A program made the translations under genes and the position numbers. The notes under the pieces are model-generated. The model searched no databases and had not been told where the DNA came from. It saw nothing but the letters and a program-made list of their open reading frames with translations. From Halobacteriales archaeon QH_7_66_36 (lineage in GTDB: Archaea > Halobacteriota > Halobacteria > Halobacteriales > Haloarculaceae): a stretch of DNA of 64,000 nt. The DNA lies in NCBI GenBank assembly GCA_003021175.1, contig PXQV01000010.1, forward strand, positions 1 to 64,000, read 5' to 3'. This document shows, one piece after another, positions 27,907 to 37,684 of this stretch; positions within the stretch are counted from its first letter, which is position 1; each line of letters starts with the position of its first letter.

Positions 27907-29364
27907 ATGATGGCCCCGCAACGCTCCGATCGTGTCAGTACCGGGACTGATGGTCTCGACGGCGTTCTCAACGGCGGCTTCATCCGTGGGCAGACGGCCG
28001 TGGTGACCGGCGGCCCCGGAACCGGGAAGACGGTCCTCGCACTCCAGTTTCTCGCCGCGGGCGACAGCGGCCTCTACATCGGCTTCGAGGAGCGAGAGAC
28101 GGACATCCGCGCGAACGCGGCGGCGCTCGGCATCGACCTCTCGGACGTAACCATCCTCGACCTGAGCGCGTCGGGCGAGCGGTTCTTCGAGGGCGAGGAG
28201 TACACCATCTTCCCCCACGAAGAGGTGGAGGGCGAGGAGATGCTCGACGAGATCGCGGCGGCGATCGACGGCGAATCGCCGGAGCGGCTCGCTATCGATC
28301 CCCTCTCGGAGCTTCGGTCGCTCGTCCCCGACGACTACCGGTTCCGCCGCAACATCTCCTCGCTGTTCAACGAGCTGAAGGGCCGCGAGGTGACGACGCT
28401 GTGCACCACCCAGTCGACCGCCGGCTCCGACCGCGACCTCCAGTTCCTCGGCGACCTGACCGTCGATATCAACCGGGAGACGAACCACCGGACGCTGGAG
28501 GTGACGAAATCTCGCGGCACCGACGCCGCGAGCGGCCGTCACAGCTACCGCATCCGTGGCGACACCGGCGGTCGAGTGTATCCGAAACTCGTCCCCGGCG
28601 ACCACGAGCGCGAACGCGGACAGGAGCGCGAACAGCTGTCGGCCGGCGTCGACGAGGTGGACGCGCTGTTGAAGGGCGGCATCGAGACGGGCTCCGTGAC
28701 CGTCATCTCCGGGCCGTCCGGCGCGGGGAAGACGACGCTCGGCTCGCTGTTCCTCCAGACGGCCGCCGCGTCCGACCGGACGGCGGCCGGGTTCCTCTTC
28801 GAGGAGCTGCTCGACGACTATCTCTACCGGTCGGACGCGCTCGGTCTCGACGTGAACGACCACTACGACGCGGGGCGGCTCGAACTCACCGAAGTCGAGT
28901 CGCTGACGCGCAGCACGGACGAGTTCGCCCACGACATCCGGCAGGCCGTCGAGGCGGACGGCGTCGAAGTCGTCATGATCGACGGCATTCCGGGCTATCG
29001 GCTCTCGCTCCGGGGCGACGAGACGGAGGAGATGCTGACGCGCGAACTCCACGCGCTGTGTCGCTACTGCAAGCGGATGGGCGTCAGCCTCATCCTCATC
29101 GACGAGGTGCGCAACGTCACCGGCGACCTCACGCCGACGGACCAACGGATCAGCTATCTCGCCGACAATATCGTCTTCCTCCGGTACATGGAGCACGGCG
29201 GCAGCGTCGAGAAGGTGATGGGCGTGCTGAAGAAGCGGTTCGGCGACTTCGAGCAGTCGCTGCGACGGCTGGAGATCGACGAGGGCGGCGTCCACGTCGG
29301 TGAACGACTCTCCGGAATGCGAGGCGTACTGACCGGAGTGCCCGAACAGGTCGACGAGGGCTAA
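27907..29364 (+). CDS. KaiC-like double RecA-domain ATPase
   Basis: A 485-residue protein with two RecA/KaiC domains. Domain 1 has Walker A GGPGTGKTVL (about 35-44) and catalytic-type acidic residues in GFEERETDI; domain 2 has GPSGAGKTTL (about 265-274) and the Walker B-like VVMIDGIPG. Archaeal KaiC-like proteins are signalling or scaffold ATPases, some binding sensor kinases, and not true clock proteins. The stop overlaps the start of the LOV kinase (TAATG), so both are made together and probably work together. The ATG at 27907 or 27910 may be used. Confidence 0.87.
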   Translation: MMAPQRSDRVSTGTDGLDGVLNGGFIRGQTAVVTGGPGTGKTVLALQFLAAGDSGLYIGFEERETDIRANAAALGIDLSDVTILDLSASGERFFEGEEYTIFPHEEVEGEEMLDEIAAAIDGESPERLAIDPLSELRSLVPDDYRFRRNISSLFNELKGREVTTLCTTQSTAGSDRDLQFLGDLTVDINRETNHRTLEVTKSRGTDAASGRHSYRIRGDTGGRVYPKLVPGDHERERGQEREQLSAGVDEVDALLKGGIETGSVTVISGPSGAGKTTLGSLFLQTAAASDRTAAGFLFEELLDDYLYRSDALGLDVNDHYDAGRLELTEVESLTRSTDEFAHDIRQAVEADGVEVVMIDGIPGYRLSLRGDETEEMLTRELHALCRYCKRMGVSLILIDEVRNVTGDLTPTDQRISYLADNIVFLRYMEHGGSVEKVMGVLKKRFGDFEQSLRRLEIDEGGVHVGERLSGMRGVLTGVPEQVDEG

Positions 29365-31157
29365 TGGCGGACGCTCGCGACGAGTCGGTCGAGCGAGAGA
29401 CCGACGACGACGCTACGCTCTCCGTCGCACTCGGCTTCGAGAGCGCCCGCAACCGCGAACTGCTCGCCGGACTGCTGGACAGGTACGACGTGGTCACGGC
29501 CGAGCAGACGGTGCCGGACGGAACCGACATCTGTATCGTCGACGCGGGCGGGTTCGAGCGACTGCGCGAGCCGCTCGCGGCGTGGCGACGCGAGGAACGG
29601 CCGACCGCCGCACCGGCCCTGCTCGTGTCGAGCGGCGACGAGAACGAGCTGTGGAGCCGCTACGCCGACGCGATAGGCGAATCGATCGACGGGGTCCAGC
29701 CCGTTCCCGCGCCGAAACGCGCGATCCGGTCGCGGATCAGTGGGTTCGCCGCGCTCCGTCGCTACTCCGAGCGGGCGAGCGACCAGCGGGACCAGTTAGA
29801 GCTGTACGGCCGCGCGATGGACGACGCACACGTCGGCATCACCATCGCCGACGCCACCGCCGAGGAACTTCCGCTCGTCTACGTCAACGAGCAGTTCTGC
29901 CGGATGACCGGCTACGACCGCGAGGATGTGCTCGGCCGCAGCTGTCGGTTCCTCCAGGGCCCGGAGACGGACGAGGCGAAGCGCCAGCAGTTCCGCGACG
30001 CCTTCGCCGTCGAGGAGCCGGTGACGGTCGAACTCATCAACTACCGGAAGGACGGCGAACAGTTCTGGAACGAGGTGGAGGTCCTCCCCGTCTACGAAGA
30101 CGGGTCGGTCACCCACTATATCGGCTTCCAGCGAGACGTGACCGAGCGGCGCGAGCGGGCGACCCAGCTCGAAGCGTACGAACACATCATCCAGACGGTC
30201 ACCGACCCCATCCTCGTGCTCGACACGGAGGGACACGTGACGTACACCAACGGGACGGCACGGGAGACGTTCGGCCCCGTGCCGAACAGCACCACGTTCG
30301 CCGACCTGTTCGACGACGACGAGGCGGCCGCCGTCGAGGAGGCGCTGTCCGCGCTCCGCGAGTCGGGCGAGGAGCAGACCCGCGAACTGTCGCTGTTCGG
30401 GTCGACCGGCGGCACCGCCACGTATCAGGTCCGGTTTCAGCCGGCGTCCTTCGGTGGCGAGGAACAGGTCATCGTCGTCGCACGCGACATCACGGACATC
30501 CGTCGCCACCAGAACCGGCTGGCCGTGCTCGACCGAGTGTTGCGCCACAATCTCCGCAACAAGCTGAACATCGTCGCCGGACACGCACAGACGCTCACGG
30601 CCCAGAGCCCCGATAGCGAGCGGGTCAGCGACGCCGCCGAGTCGATCGAAACCGCGACCGGAAGCCTGCTCGATATCGTCGACGCCATCCGCGAGTTCGA
30701 CGTCAGACCCGACGAGGCGTCGGCCGTCGAGCGAGACCTGACGGCGTTCGTCCGCGAGTGTGAACTGGAGTTGCGAACGGAGTATCCGTCGGCCGAGTTG
30801 AGGACAGACCTCCCCGAGACGGCGCGAGCGCGGTGTCCCGCACAGCTTCGCTTCTGTCTGGACGAACTCGTCGGGAGCGCCGTCGAGCGGGCGAACGAAT
30901 CCCCGACCATCTGGCTCACCGTGACGGCAGGCGTCGAGACCGTGACGCTGCGCGTTCGCAGCGACGGCGAGCCGCTCCCCGACGTCGAGCGACGGGCGCT
31001 GGCGGCCGGCACGGAGACGCAGCTCGAACACACGCAGGGCGTCGGTATCTGGCTGACGCAGTGGGCCGTCGAGGCGGTCGGCGGCGGGCTCCGGGTCGAG
31101 CAGGGCGACGACGGAACGGCCGTCGCGCTCACGTTCCCGGCCCACAGTCGAAGCTGA
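29364..31157 (+). CDS. LOV/PAS sensor histidine kinase-like protein
   Basis: A 597-residue cytoplasmic protein: a receiver-like N-terminus (about 18-130), a LOV domain (about 150-262), a PAS domain (about 270-382) and a kinase region. The LOV signature GRSCRFLQGPETD contains Cys194 in the place of the flavin-adduct cysteine, with NYRKDGEQFWNE and the late glutamine of IGFQRDVTERR, so blue-light sensing through FMN is likely. The phospho-acceptor box RHNLRNKLNIVAG has His395. The ATP-binding part is odd: the N box reads DELVGSAVERA with Ser for the conserved Asn, and the G1 box reads SDGEPLPD. It overlaps the KaiC-like gene by one base. Confidence 0.85.
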   Translation: MADARDESVERETDDDATLSVALGFESARNRELLAGLLDRYDVVTAEQTVPDGTDICIVDAGGFERLREPLAAWRREERPTAAPALLVSSGDENELWSRYADAIGESIDGVQPVPAPKRAIRSRISGFAALRRYSERASDQRDQLELYGRAMDDAHVGITIADATAEELPLVYVNEQFCRMTGYDREDVLGRSCRFLQGPETDEAKRQQFRDAFAVEEPVTVELINYRKDGEQFWNEVEVLPVYEDGSVTHYIGFQRDVTERRERATQLEAYEHIIQTVTDPILVLDTEGHVTYTNGTARETFGPVPNSTTFADLFDDDEAAAVEEALSALRESGEEQTRELSLFGSTGGTATYQVRFQPASFGGEEQVIVVARDITDIRRHQNRLAVLDRVLRHNLRNKLNIVAGHAQTLTAQSPDSERVSDAAESIETATGSLLDIVDAIREFDVRPDEASAVERDLTAFVRECELELRTEYPSAELRTDLPETARARCPAQLRFCLDELVGSAVERANESPTIWLTVTAGVETVTLRVRSDGEPLPDVERRALAAGTETQLEHTQGVGIWLTQWAVEAVGGGLRVEQGDDGTAVALTFPAHSRS

Positions 31158-32507: not shown

Positions 32508-33710
32508 ATGGATCTGCCGACACCGTTCCGGTTCGACTACCGACCCGGCGTCGTGCGCTTCGGCGACGGCTGTGTCGACGCGCTCGCCGAGGAGCTCGCG
32601 AATCAGGGGATCGACCGCGCGCTCGTCTGCTGTGGCGAGAGCGTCGGCGACTCGCCGGTCCGCGAGGCGGTCGAAGACGGCCTCGGCGACCGCCACGCGG
32701 CCACCTTCGCCGGGACGAGCGCTCAGAAGGCGCTCGTCGAAGCCGCCGGGGCCAGAGAGGCGTTTCACGGCCACGACGCGGAGGTCTTCCTCGCGGTCGG
32801 CGGCGGCTCCGCGCTCGATGTTGCGAAGGCCGCTGCCGTCCTGACCGCGAGCGACCAACCGGTCGCCGGGGCGGCCGCCGACGTCGCCGCGACGGGCACG
32901 CCCGACATCCCGGCGGGCGACCTGCCGCCCATCGCGGCCGTGCCGACGACGCTGGCGGGCGCAGACCTGTCACAGGTCGCCGGCCTCACCGCCACCCCCG
33001 ACTCGGACGGCGTCGAGGAGACCGTCGGCGGCGGTATCTCCGACCCGCGGCTCATGCCGACGGGACTCTTCTACGACCCCGCGCTGTTCGAGCACACGCC
33101 CGCCGGCGTGCTCGCCGCGTCGGCGATGAACGGCTTCGACAAGGCCGTCGAGACGCTGTACGCCGCGAACGCGACGGCTATCTCGGACGCGACCGCCATC
33201 CACGCGCTCCGACTGTGCCGCGACGCGCTCCCGGAACTCGGCGGCGGCACGAGCGACCGTGAGACACTACGCGATGCCGTTGCCGGGATCATGCTCGCGC
33301 AGTACGGGGCCTCACGGCCGGACGGGTCGACGCTCTCGCTCGTCCACGCCTTCGGACACGGCCTGACCGCCGTGAGCGACATCCAGCAGGGGGCGGCCCA
33401 CGGCGCGATTGCGCCGCACGCGCTCGAGTATCTGTTCGAGCAGACGGACGGCAGGCGCGACCTGCTCGCGGAAGGGTTCGGCATCGAGGCGGACACGCCC
33501 GACGAGGCGGCCGCGGGCGTGGTCGACGCGGTGGCGGCGGTCCGCGACGGTCTCGGTCTCCCGACGCAGCTGCGCGACACCGTCGTCCCGGAGGACGGCC
33601 TCGACCGCGCGGCCGAAATCACCCACGAGGACGCGTTCATGGCGAACGCGCCCGAGGGGCTGGAGGCGACCGAGGCGGAACTCCGCGGGGTGCTCGACCG
33701 CGCGTGGTGA
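32508..33710 (+). CDS. Iron-containing alcohol dehydrogenase
   Basis: A 400-residue group III dehydrogenase. The nucleotide-binding GGGSALDVAKA (about 103-113) and PTTLAGADLSQVAGL are typical. The metal ligands are in the C-terminal domain: AMNGFDKAVE, SLVHAFGHGL (two His) and GAAHGAIAPHALEY. The physiological substrate could be butanol-type alcohols, lactaldehyde or maleylacetate. It is transcribed away from the VOC gene with a palindromic operator candidate between. Confidence 0.87.
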   Translation: MDLPTPFRFDYRPGVVRFGDGCVDALAEELANQGIDRALVCCGESVGDSPVREAVEDGLGDRHAATFAGTSAQKALVEAAGAREAFHGHDAEVFLAVGGGSALDVAKAAAVLTASDQPVAGAAADVAATGTPDIPAGDLPPIAAVPTTLAGADLSQVAGLTATPDSDGVEETVGGGISDPRLMPTGLFYDPALFEHTPAGVLAASAMNGFDKAVETLYAANATAISDATAIHALRLCRDALPELGGGTSDRETLRDAVAGIMLAQYGASRPDGSTLSLVHAFGHGLTAVSDIQQGAAHGAIAPHALEYLFEQTDGRRDLLAEGFGIEADTPDEAAAGVVDAVAAVRDGLGLPTQLRDTVVPEDGLDRAAEITHEDAFMANAPEGLEATEAELRGVLDRAW

Positions 33711-33803: not shown

Positions 33804-34733
33804 GTGAGCGAAGAGGACCTGCGGGACGCGGCCGCCGCACTCCGTGGCTCTGTCGTCGTCGCGGGCTGTGGGGAAGTGGGGCGGGAAGCCGCCGCGCAGG
33901 TGGCCGTCGACGGCGTCGTGGCGCGGGCCGACGACGCGATTCCCGACGACGCGCAGGCGGCGTTCGTCGGCGTCGACCTCGCGGACCCGTCGCCGGCGGT
34001 GGCGCTGGCCCGCAGATGTGCGGCCGCGGACACGCTCGCGGTGCTGGTCGCGGCAGTCGACCCGCGACCGACGGCGGAGACGCGCACGGCGCTCGCCACG
34101 CTTCGCGAGGCCGCGGACGCGGTGGTGCTCTCGGCCGGCGATGAACCCGTCGCGGGCACGGCCGCCGGCCTCCGGACGCTCGTGCGGTTGATCGCCGGCT
34201 CCGACGACGTGAACGTGGATCTCGCGGACGCGGAGACGGTGGTGGCGACGGGTGGCTTCGCGGCGGTCGGCGCGGCGACCAATCTCGACCCGGCGGCGGC
34301 GATGACGGCCGCGGTCGACGCCTGCGGGCCGGTGTCGCTCACGCGAGCGAGCGGCGCGCTCGTCCACCTCGAAGGCGACCGGGAACTCTCCGTGCAGGCG
34401 GCCGGCGACGCGGTCGCCGCCGTCCGCGACCGACTCGTCGACGGGAGTCACGTCATCTGGGGCGCGGACACGGACGCCGGCGAATACCGCGAGGGCGGGG
34501 CACACGACGACGAGGTGACGGCCCGGGTCGTGCTCGCGGGGGTCGTTCCGGTCCGGCCGCCCGCGGAGGCCGGCGACCCCTGCCCCCGGTGTGGCGCGTC
34601 GCTCGTCGGCTACCGGATGGGTGACCGCGAGACGGTCGCCTGTGACGGGTGTGGCTTCGCGGACGTGACGACGCCGCTGGGCGGCGACCCACTCGTTCCG
34701 GGCGAGGACTACGGGTCCGGTTCCGGGTCGTAA
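33804..34733 (+). CDS. Divergent FtsZ/tubulin-like protein with C-terminal zinc ribbon
   Basis: A 309-residue protein (GTG start). Residues about 115-245 follow the second half of FtsZ: AGLRTLVRLIAGSDDVNVDL then ADAETVVATGGFAAVGAATN, next SGALVHLEGDRELSVQAAGD, then VIWGADTDAGEY and VTARVVLAG. The order matches the FtsZ stretch from the linking helix through the C-terminal activation domain. The N-terminal part has VVVAGCGEVGREAA but lacks the GGGTGTG tubulin loop, so GTP binding is doubtful. A zinc ribbon closes the protein (CPRCGASLVGY ... CDGCGFADV). The FtsZ link is my inference from pattern; role unknown. Confidence 0.6.
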   Translation: MSEEDLRDAAAALRGSVVVAGCGEVGREAAAQVAVDGVVARADDAIPDDAQAAFVGVDLADPSPAVALARRCAAADTLAVLVAAVDPRPTAETRTALATLREAADAVVLSAGDEPVAGTAAGLRTLVRLIAGSDDVNVDLADAETVVATGGFAAVGAATNLDPAAAMTAAVDACGPVSLTRASGALVHLEGDRELSVQAAGDAVAAVRDRLVDGSHVIWGADTDAGEYREGGAHDDEVTARVVLAGVVPVRPPAEAGDPCPRCGASLVGYRMGDRETVACDGCGFADVTTPLGGDPLVPGEDYGSGSGS

Positions 34734-35611
34734 TCCGGGCCAACGCGCAGGGAGAGCGTCCGCGGCCGACACCGCAGGCGGAGCGACTCGTGAGTGGCGA
34801 GTTCGCCGTCGCGCGAGAAGGTGATCGGTTCGGGACCCGAGACGGTGAGTTCGCTCGCCCGGAGGTGGGTGACGCCATCCGTCTCCTGTCCGAGCAGGCG
34901 GTGGCCGATGGCCTCCGCGACGAGCGAGCCGGTCGGCATGTGTTCGACGACCGCCACGTCGAAGTAGCCGTCCTCCATGTTCGCCTGTCCGCCCGCCTCG
35001 ATGAACTTCCGGGCGTTGCCGACGAGCACGCAGGTGGCCTCGCCGTGCCACGTCTCGGTGCCGTCCGCGACGGTCGCGTCGAGTTCGATCTCGATCCCCT
35101 CGAAGCCGACCGCCTCCTGTGCGCCGGTGATGACGAACGCGAACGTGCCGTACTGCTCCTTCAGGTCGCCGGAGGCCGCGAGGCTGGCGTCGGCGGGGAA
35201 TCCGGCGATACAGGAGACGGCGAACGGTTCGCCGTCGGCAACGCCCACGTCGACCTCACGCACGTCGCCGCTGTCGGCCATCTCCGCGCCGTGACGGACA
35301 TCCTCGATGCCGAGGTTCTCCGCGAGGATGTTCGCCGTCCCGCAGGGGACGACGCCGACGGTCGTGTCGGCGAGGCTGTCGGCGGCTGCCAACCCGCGCA
35401 ACACCTCGTTGACCGTGCCGTCGCCGCCACACACCGCGAGTTCGGAGACGCCGCGCTCGCCGGCCTCGCGGCCGAGACGGAGGGCGTCGCCCGCGTCCTC
35501 TGTCCGGTCGACGGCGAAGCCGCGCGCCTCCAGCAGTCGCGTGACGTAGTCGGCGTGGTCGCCGGTCCCGCTGGCCGGATTGAGGATCGCGCGGCGCGAA
35601 CCGATCTGCAT
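34709..35611 (-). CDS. Diacylglycerol/sphingosine kinase-family lipid kinase (YegS/DagK-like)
   Basis: A 300-residue enzyme. The ATP site ILNPASGTG near residue 9 and the catalytic loop VCGGDGTVNEVLRGL (about 60-75) define the DAGK catalytic domain, followed by GVVPCGTANILAENL. The C-terminal beta sandwich includes GGQANMEDGYFDVAVVEH. The likely substrate is an archaeal isoprenoid lipid alcohol or diacylglycerol-like lipid. Its 3' end overlaps the convergent FtsZ-like gene by 25 nt. Confidence 0.88.
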   Translation of the reverse strand: MQIGSRRAILNPASGTGDHADYVTRLLEARGFAVDRTEDAGDALRLGREAGERGVSELAVCGGDGTVNEVLRGLAAADSLADTTVGVVPCGTANILAENLGIEDVRHGAEMADSGDVREVDVGVADGEPFAVSCIAGFPADASLAASGDLKEQYGTFAFVITGAQEAVGFEGIEIELDATVADGTETWHGEATCVLVGNARKFIEAGGQANMEDGYFDVAVVEHMPTGSLVAEAIGHRLLGQETDGVTHLRASELTVSGPEPITFSRDGELATHESLRLRCRPRTLSLRVGPDYDPEPDP

Positions 35612-36007: not shown

Positions 36008-37684
36008 ATGCGTCACATGGAAGGTCCGCTGCTGTCGGTCGATGTCGGCGCTCGGGAGGCGACGACCGAGGCCATCGACGACACGCTCGCCGAGTTCATC
36101 GGCGGCCGCGGCGTCGCCACGAAGCTCGCCCACGACCGCGTCCCGTTCGACGCCGACCCGTTCGGCCCGGAGAACCGCCTCTATCTCACGACTGGGCCGA
36201 TGCAGGCCTCACAGATGTCGTTCACCGGGCGGATGTCGCTCACCGGCGTCTCGCCGCTCACCGACGGCCTGCTCTCGTCGAACGCCGGCGGCTTCATGTC
36301 GCGCAACTTCACTGGCACCGGCAACGCGGCCGTCGAACTCGTCGGCGCGAGCGACGAACTGCTCGCGGTCCACGTCCGCGACGACGGCGTCACCTTCGAG
36401 GAGGTGCCGAACCTCGCGGGTGCCGACGTGCCCGAAGTGTGCGACTACATGGCCGAGGAACACGGTCTCGACGACGAACACGTCGCCTGTATCGGTCCCG
36501 CCGGGGAGAATCAAGTCCGGTTCGCCTGCGTGATGACGAGTCGGTCGCGCGCCTTCGGCCGCGGCGGCCTCGGTGCCGTCATGGGCGCGAAGAACGTGAA
36601 GGCGATCACCTTCGAGGGCGACGACGCGCTGGAGGTAGACCTCCCGGGACTCGGGGGCGATATCCACCGCGAGGCCGCCACCTCCGACAACATCATGAAG
36701 CGACAGGGGACGGCCTCGGTCACCGATCTCGGCAACGAGATGGAGGCGTTCCCGACCCGCTACTTCTCGGAGCGCTCCTTCGAGGGCGCGGAGCGCATCA
36801 ACGGCGACGCCGTCGAGTCGAAAAAGTACAAGAAGGGGACCTGCTCGCAGTGTGCGTTCGCGTGCAAGCTCCCCACCCGCGACGAGGAGCGGGGCGTCGA
36901 GACCGAGGGGCCGGAGTACGAGACGATCATGGCCTTCGGCGGCAACTGCGCGGTCGACGACGTGGTCGACGTGATGAAGTCGAACGAGTTGTGCGACCGC
37001 CTCGGGATGGACGTCATCTCCTGTGGCGACACCGTCGCCGCGTATCTCGAAACACAGGACGCCTTCGGCGACGCGGAGCTGGTCCACGAGACCGTCGAGC
37101 ACATCGCCCACCGCGAGGGCATCGGGGACGTGCTCGCGGAGGGCGTCGACCGCGCCCACGACGAGCTGGGCGTCGAGAACTGGTCGGTGAAGGGGATGGA
37201 GTTCCCCGCGCACGACGGCCGCGCGCTCCACGGGCAGGGCCTCTCCTTCGCCGTCTCCAACCGCGGCGCGGACCACATGTACGCCACCTTCTACGCCTAC
37301 GAGTATCCGCTCGTCGCCCGCGAGGAGGCGTTCGACCCGGATGGGATCGGCGACGAGAAAGCCGAGAAGCTGGTCGAGCTGGAGAACACCCGCGCGCTGG
37401 AGGACTGCGGCGTCGTCTGTCGCTTCTCGCGCGGGATGATGACGCCCGAGCGGTTCGCGACGCTGTTCGACGCCGACTTCGAGGACCTCCTGTCGGTCGG
37501 CGGCCGCGTCGTCGAGCTGGAGCGGCACTTCAACAACGAGCGCGGCTTCGACCGCGCCGACGACCAGCTCCCGTACGACATCGACGGCCTCGACACCGCC
37601 CTGTCGCGCTACTACGAGGCGCGCGGCTGGACCGACGACGGCATCGTGACCGACCCCGGTCGGTCCCCGACGGCAGCCGACTGA
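36008..37684 (+). CDS. Aldehyde ferredoxin oxidoreductase-family tungsten/molybdenum enzyme
   Basis: A 558-residue member of the AOR family, which oxidises aldehydes to acids with a bis-pterin tungsten cofactor and one 4Fe-4S cluster. The N-terminal pterin-binding domain has FIGGRGVATKLAHD and LYLTTGPMQASQM. Cluster ligands are Cys279, Cys282 and Cys286 (CSQCAFACK) with Cys467 or Cys471 (EDCGVVC) as the fourth. GRGGLGAVMGAKNVKA matches the second pterin loop. It is slightly shorter than hyperthermophile AOR. The electron acceptor is presumably ferredoxin. No maturation genes are adjacent. Confidence 0.92.
   Translation: MRHMEGPLLSVDVGAREATTEAIDDTLAEFIGGRGVATKLAHDRVPFDADPFGPENRLYLTTGPMQASQMSFTGRMSLTGVSPLTDGLLSSNAGGFMSRNFTGTGNAAVELVGASDELLAVHVRDDGVTFEEVPNLAGADVPEVCDYMAEEHGLDDEHVACIGPAGENQVRFACVMTSRSRAFGRGGLGAVMGAKNVKAITFEGDDALEVDLPGLGGDIHREAATSDNIMKRQGTASVTDLGNEMEAFPTRYFSERSFEGAERINGDAVESKKYKKGTCSQCAFACKLPTRDEERGVETEGPEYETIMAFGGNCAVDDVVDVMKSNELCDRLGMDVISCGDTVAAYLETQDAFGDAELVHETVEHIAHREGIGDVLAEGVDRAHDELGVENWSVKGMEFPAHDGRALHGQGLSFAVSNRGADHMYATFYAYEYPLVAREEAFDPDGIGDEKAEKLVELENTRALEDCGVVCRFSRGMMTPERFATLFDADFEDLLSVGGRVVELERHFNNERGFDRADDQLPYDIDGLDTALSRYYEARGWTDDGIVTDPGRSPTAAD

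Follow-up and report, generated by a model that had tools for sequence, protein, structure and literature searches.

A haloarchaeal FtsZ-like family without the GTP loop, with a retained T7 face and a C-terminal CxxC ribbon

Introduction

In FtsZ filaments, the nucleotide face of each subunit meets the T7 face (T7, H8, S9, and H10) of the next; GTP is held by loops T1-T6, and the elements that the nucleotide face contributes to the contacts are the H6-H7 loop, T5, T3, and H1/H2. To our knowledge, few regulators of archaeal FtsZ are known. The filament interface comprises four contacts, which pair H10 with the H6-H7 loop, S9 with T5, H8 with T3, and T7 with H1 and H2 (PMC8936486). The T7/H10 (plus) face is also the binding site of the bacterial cappers and sequesterers MciZ, SulA, and MinC (PMC11938149), which control FtsZ assembly from a single polymerisation face, as is proposed below for the protein described here, although these three are unrelated to FtsZ. 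Chloroplast ARC3 is derived from FtsZ as a chimera that has an extra domain at its C-terminus; it acts as a regulator, binding both FtsZ1 and FtsZ2 and inhibiting assembly (PMC5855766).

Among the non-canonical families of the FtsZ superfamily, FtsZl-1 and FtsZl-2, some of whose members are archaeal, were recognised by the GTP loop GGGTG(S/T)G (PMC2875224, Makarova and Koonin 2010). The family described here, termed pseudo-FtsZ, lacks that loop and would therefore be missed by a search based on it; its architecture is set apart from those of FtsZl-1 and FtsZl-2 by their description only. The haloarchaeal CetZ proteins, which belong to the same superfamily and occur in the same genome, likewise keep a GTP loop (GGGTGSG), unlike pseudo-FtsZ. 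Here, we compare with these systems a gene found in the window, i.e. the 64,000-nucleotide stretch of Halobacteriales archaeon QH_7_66_36 that was analysed.

The pseudo-FtsZ gene and its relationship to FtsZ

The gene and the parts of its product were annotated as follows.

33804-34733, + strand: pseudo-FtsZ gene, with GTG start, 309 aa, and TAA stop
33804-34148, + strand: reduced FtsZ nucleotide-binding domain, residues 1-115, delimited by hhalign of the N-half and the per-element table
33864-33881, + strand: remnant of loop T1, GCGEVG, residues 21-26 (GCGGAG in FtsZ2; variable across the family)
33975-33998, + strand: DLADPSPA, residues 58-65, aligned to where FtsZ has loop T4 (GLGGGTGTGSAP)
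34212-34238, + strand: T7 synergy loop NVDLADAET, residues 137-145, with N137, D139, D142, and T145 in 34/34 members
34239-34544, + strand: FtsZ C-terminal (activation) domain H8-S10, residues 146-247, from Pfam and profile matches
34452-34466, + strand: strand S9 VIWGA, residues 217-221 (IIWGA in FtsZ2), with W219 and G220 invariant
34572-34667, + strand: CPRC(x16)CDGC ribbon of haloarchaeal C(P)XCG type, residues 257-288, where FtsZ has its C-terminal peptide

The start codon is backed by the alignment of the MTTDEEL/VSEEDL N-termini with MTDEEL of FtsZ2. Taken alone, the window protein matches M. jannaschii FtsZ in a phmmer search of the PDB (1fsz, 2.3e-11, residues 123-225), the NCBIfam ftsZ model at 3e-7 (30 bits against a curated cut-off of 295), and Pfam FtsZ_C at 9.5e-5 (23.1 bits, below the cut-off of 27). 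The family gives far stronger values: in an alignment of 27 relatives (A1), which formed the basis of the family profile, all 27 match FtsZ_C (PF12327) at E <= 0.1, the best at 5.9e-15, and all 27 match TIGR00065, the best at 7.7e-21. The profile built from them reaches 2.6e-39 to 1w58 and 2.8e-39 to 1fsz, with 249 of 296 positions aligned to M. jannaschii FtsZ (profile positions 6-254). By these comparisons, the window protein is an FtsZ paralogue that has degenerated and carries a ribbon at its C-terminus, and its homology to FtsZ spans the whole core, from the N-terminal helix to S10, as expected of a member of the superfamily by descent.

The sequence-only reading of this open reading frame had likewise found it FtsZ-like, a call borne out by phmmer, NCBIfam, and the family profile, and had placed the likeness from about residue 115 onwards. 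In hhalign against haloarchaeal FtsZ1/FtsZ2, where the whole protein scores 99.9%, the C-half indeed reaches 99.7%, but the likeness is not limited to it, as the N-half alone reaches 95.2% (E 2.5e-8); the ribbon alone matches no FtsZ1/FtsZ2 profile. Since the N-half aligns with FtsZ by itself, it is no unrelated Rossmann domain but, on profile evidence, a shortened FtsZ GTPase domain. A plain Rossmann (TrkA-N) fold, named earlier as the contrary outcome, was ruled out, as Pfam finds no such domain and the N-half aligns with the FtsZ N-domain. The suggested link to CetZ did not survive: both CetZ-like proteins encoded in this genome score only 0.2-0.3% in hhalign against the family, which is no significant profile similarity, and membership of CetZ was ruled out. 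The parent is instead FtsZ, and haloarchaeal FtsZ2 appears to be the closest by score only, among the matches listed (137-150 bits with the family profile, against 98-113 for FtsZ1). An AlphaFold2 model built from two sequences only (the window protein and a 95% identical relative, L056) had a pLDDT of 40.6 and a pTM of 0.31; the order of its helices and strands agrees with FtsZ and was given no weight.

Directional loss along one polymerisation face

Pseudo-FtsZ shares with haloarchaeal FtsZ2/FtsZ1 and canonical FtsZ (TIGR00065, PF12327) the core to S10, the NxDxxD motif, and IWGA, whereas GGGTGTG, T2, T3, T5, T6, and the C-terminal peptide are features of canonical FtsZ that it does not have. 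For each structural element, retention was scored as the share of FtsZ1/2-invariant residues still present in the family. On the GTP face, retention is 0.06 for S2-T2-H2, 0.18 for T3, 0.11 for T4, 0.13 for T5, and 0.01 for T6-H6-H6/H7, the column placement of T3 and T4 being uncertain because too few residues remain for alignment; with occupancies of 0.21 and 0.16, S2-T2-H2 and T6-H6-H6/H7 are mostly deleted. Within residues 1-115 of the window protein, H2/T2, T4, and T5 show deletion or decay, and T3 cannot be made out. The GGGTGTG (T4) loop is missing from every family member, as had been noted for this one protein; of the other nucleotide loops, T1 is retained in part and variable, T2 and T6 are deleted, T5 is decayed, and T3 cannot be recognised. 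On the T7 face, retention is 0.76 for T7 and 0.96 for S9, and H8 and H10 are present in diverged form, with about 0.3 of the FtsZ-invariant residues kept. The T7 motif N-x-D-x-x-D and T145 are kept in all 34 members, and the residues invariant outside the ribbon in the 27 relatives are N137, D139, D142, and T145 (T7/H8), V187 (S8), and W219 and G220 (S9). The alignments thus show a directional loss, confined to one polymerisation face.

Residues N137, D139, and D142 are equivalent to N208, D210, and D213 of Staphylococcus aureus FtsZ, in which the substitutions N208L, D210N, and D213N abolish assembly and D210 and D213 act on the GTP of the neighbouring subunit (PMC8936486). A crystal structure could still be obtained for the D210N protein (PMC8936486), which argues that the T7 residues serve more than folding. 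Their retention in a protein without a GTP site of its own suggests a contact with the GTP face of another subunit. It is very unlikely that pseudo-FtsZ is itself a subunit of a GTP-driven polymer, in line with the earlier suggestion that it could bind filaments instead of polymerising with GTP.

The C-terminal ribbon

The FtsZ C-terminal peptide, the site of SepF-type anchors, is absent from pseudo-FtsZ, and the ribbon stands in its place; the archaeal anchor SepF of Haloferax binds FtsZ2 and not FtsZ1 (PMC8187382). The four cysteines, C260-x2-C263...C280-x2-C283, form two CxxC knuckles and are invariant in all 27 relatives, so that the appended CxxC...CxxC ribbon, first seen in the window protein, proves to be a feature of the family. 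It resembles the TFIIB-type, eS31, and Fpg ribbons, as well as stand-alone small haloarchaeal proteins at 35-54% identity. Examples of stand-alone CPRCG...CxxCGF/Y ribbon proteins of about 60 aa were seen at L108:269-454 and at about 409-585 of L107; among the matches listed, none of the stand-alone proteins scored above the cut-off of any named NCBIfam family. The small zinc-finger proteins of the haloarchaeal C(P)XCG type have two CxxC(G) motifs as the ribbon does, but stand alone, without an FtsZ part. As such stand-alone proteins match the ribbon, it probably originated from the haloarchaeal C(P)XCG pool. Zinc binding by the ribbon is a prediction from its cysteine motifs and no firmer than that, since some Haloferax C(P)XCG proteins bind zinc and others, 5 of the 14 purified, contain none (PMC11241148).

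Distribution, origin, and selection

A class-wide search with the A1 profile recovered members in 29 of 391 haloarchaeal genomes at E-values of 1e-69 to 1e-105, and an empty score gap separates them from FtsZ proteins, which begin at about 1e-43, so that the family has a clear boundary. Over all searches, 34 members were gathered from seven genera (g1, g3, g6, g10, g24, g57, and g101), which fall into three families (f1, f4, and f12); a 95% identical relative of the window protein occurs in the metagenome-assembled genome of Halobacteriales archaeon QS_9_67_17. No members were found outside haloarchaea in a phylum-wide sample of 393 genomes, no virus-borne copies in IMG/VR with the family alignment as query, and no plasmid copies in PLSDB with the window protein as query. 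Each of the 29 genomes in which the class-wide search placed a member has two additional FtsZ matches, the number expected from FtsZ1 plus FtsZ2; pseudo-FtsZ co-occurs with both. Its patchy distribution indicates that it is dispensable for division. In the literature searched, which was largely open-access, we found no description of a protein of this architecture, in agreement with the initial impression that none had been characterised, and the conserved haloarchaeal family of one-faced FtsZ proteins is apparently undescribed there.

In a first tree, which included CetZ and one very divergent member (L005), the family formed a single clade in 12% of bootstraps; in a tree without these, it is one clade with 99/99 branch support. 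A single origin of the family also fits the ribbon and the deletions that its members share. In the tree, the branch point may lie either within FtsZ2 or before the FtsZ1/2 split. Pseudo-FtsZ is under purifying selection, and across 13 pairs its whole-gene pN/pS is 0.15-0.61. Genus g24 has a fast-evolving N-half (0.58-1.14) and a C-domain at 0.19-0.41.

Genomic context

Two neighbours flank the gene in the window.

32508-33710, + strand: iron-containing alcohol dehydrogenase, upstream neighbour, its position shared within the genus only
34709-35611, - strand: diacylglycerol-kinase/YegS-type lipid kinase, convergent neighbour, sharing 25 bases with the 3' end of pseudo-FtsZ

The same flanking arrangement holds within the window's genus. 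In two gene-less genomes of this genus, G005 (L124) and G002 (L125), the alcohol dehydrogenase and lipid kinase genes converge at distances of ~17 and ~66 bases, respectively, apparently a precise empty site and a clean case of presence and absence. In other genera, the neighbours are a MatE transporter, a T2SS-type ATPase with an FAD oxidase, and genes that are invertase-type and phytoene synthase-type as judged from sequence. As neighbours differ between genera, the context names no pathway; an assignment of function from an operon was ruled out, the neighbours being conserved only inside a genus, and no division genes lie beside pseudo-FtsZ in the neighbourhoods compared across genera.

Several further genes were recorded. 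In genus g6 (L072-L076, e.g. L072:9351-10454), a gene for salactin, an actin-type cytoskeleton protein (Pfam Salactin 3e-186 in L072), lies within a few kb of pseudo-FtsZ; this proximity is absent from the other genera and is perhaps mere shared synteny. In the window, at 27907-31157 (+ strand), a gene for a double ATPase of the KaiC type ends right at the start of one for a PAS/histidine kinase, and the two likely form a signalling pair. A member of the aldehyde ferredoxin oxidoreductase family is encoded at 36008-37684 (+ strand; AFOR_N 1.7e-62, AFOR_C 1.5e-84).

Proposed mode of action and alternatives

We infer a mode of action that extends to docking on FtsZ, hydrolysis in trans, the sign of the effect, and the role and metal content of the ribbon. 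To judge from which elements were kept and which were lost, pseudo-FtsZ probably regulates FtsZ filaments rather than building them. In the reading that we prefer, to which we assign a probability of about 0.5, it is a one-faced FtsZ2 that would bind genuine FtsZ at the GTP face, preventing further contact at that site and perhaps prompting GTP hydrolysis in trans. T7 and S9 would engage the GTP face of a true FtsZ, whether free or at a filament end, hiding that face on the free protein and occupying the exposed GTP end of the filament. Having lost most of its nucleotide face, the docked protein would accept no further subunit, by which monomers would be sequestered or filaments terminated. 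Through the ribbon, which replaces the C-terminal anchor peptide, it would contact another partner, and the place or timing would be set in this way. The sequence-only reading had offered a binder or cap in general terms; the limitation of the loss to one face makes this idea specific and testable. The face that would be hidden on free FtsZ is the one used by incoming monomers at the growing end (PMC8936486). ARC3 is an earlier example of a relative of FtsZ that became a regulator; the analogy concerns the possible mode of action and not membership, since ARC3 is plant-specific and carries a MORN domain; no MORN repeats were matched by Pfam in the window protein. Against the preferred reading, the known cappers and sequesterers MciZ, SulA, and MinC all bind the opposite face, whereas pseudo-FtsZ carries the T7/H10 face and would bind the nucleotide face. 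Moreover, the divergence of H8 and H10 means that the contact with FtsZ may be weaker, or may target another partner. The lack of adjacent division genes, the change of neighbours from genus to genus, and the patchy distribution weigh against this reading as well.

The direction of the effect is where the readings closest to one another part. Binders of the nucleotide face of FtsZ should nucleate or stabilise filaments unless they sequester monomers (PMC11938149), an argument by which pseudo-FtsZ may either inhibit or promote assembly. The intact catalytic residues of T7 favour termination over stabilisation, and in a tentative, more elaborate version, a nucleotide-free pseudo-FtsZ would act as a GTPase-activating terminator, supplying T7 in trans to FtsZ2, converting it to the GDP state, and blocking further addition, with the ribbon as a targeting module. 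Such a regulator would act at the nucleotide face by means of FtsZ's own catalytic loop, and we know of no other. It is unlikely, in our estimate, that pseudo-FtsZ instead has a positive effect, binding through T7 to the filament end at which GTP is exposed (the kinetic minus end) and nucleating, stabilising, or, by means of the ribbon, anchoring it, much as gamma-tubulin and Arp2/3 caps do: the directional loss is equally expected there, and binding at the N-terminal polymerisation face would promote nucleation and stabilisation (PMC11938149), but a purely stabilising cap needs no intact T7 catalytic residues.

Other explanations shift the weight to the ribbon or away from FtsZ altogether. 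The invariance and strong constraint of the ribbon, together with its likeness to TFIIB-type, eS31, and Fpg ribbons, would suit a DNA-linked division regulator, comparable to nucleoid-occlusion factors, whose ribbon would sit on DNA (or RNA polymerase) and whose FtsZ part would sit on FtsZ, coupling the chromosome to Z-ring placement; yet ribbons of this type bind proteins too, and the zinc-free Haloferax C(P)XCG proteins mentioned above (5/14; PMC11241148) also speak against such a role, which we hold to be distinctly unlikely. Quite improbable, too, is an FtsZ fold repurposed for a different pathway without FtsZ contact, a view that can draw on the unconserved gene neighbourhood across genera, the diverged H8 and H10 surface, and the patchy distribution but has to account for the exposed T7 triad, which serves inter-subunit contact and catalysis and is the most conserved part besides the ribbon. 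An ftsZ copy in decay (pseudogene) or an open reading frame that arose by chance, to which the eroded nucleotide-binding half and the faster change of the N-half might point, retains next to no probability and is already refuted by purifying selection and the common architecture: seven genera hold 34 members with open frames, these form one clade, the T7 and ribbon residues are invariant, and pN/pS lies below 1.

Significance

Pseudo-FtsZ would represent an ancient cytoskeletal subunit made a probable regulator by the loss of one interface, and it illustrates that searches based on the GTP loop overlook members of the FtsZ superfamily. A paralogue that presents the T7 face only may furthermore provide a natural tool for the study of archaeal FtsZ polarity, GTP hydrolysis in trans, and end-capping.
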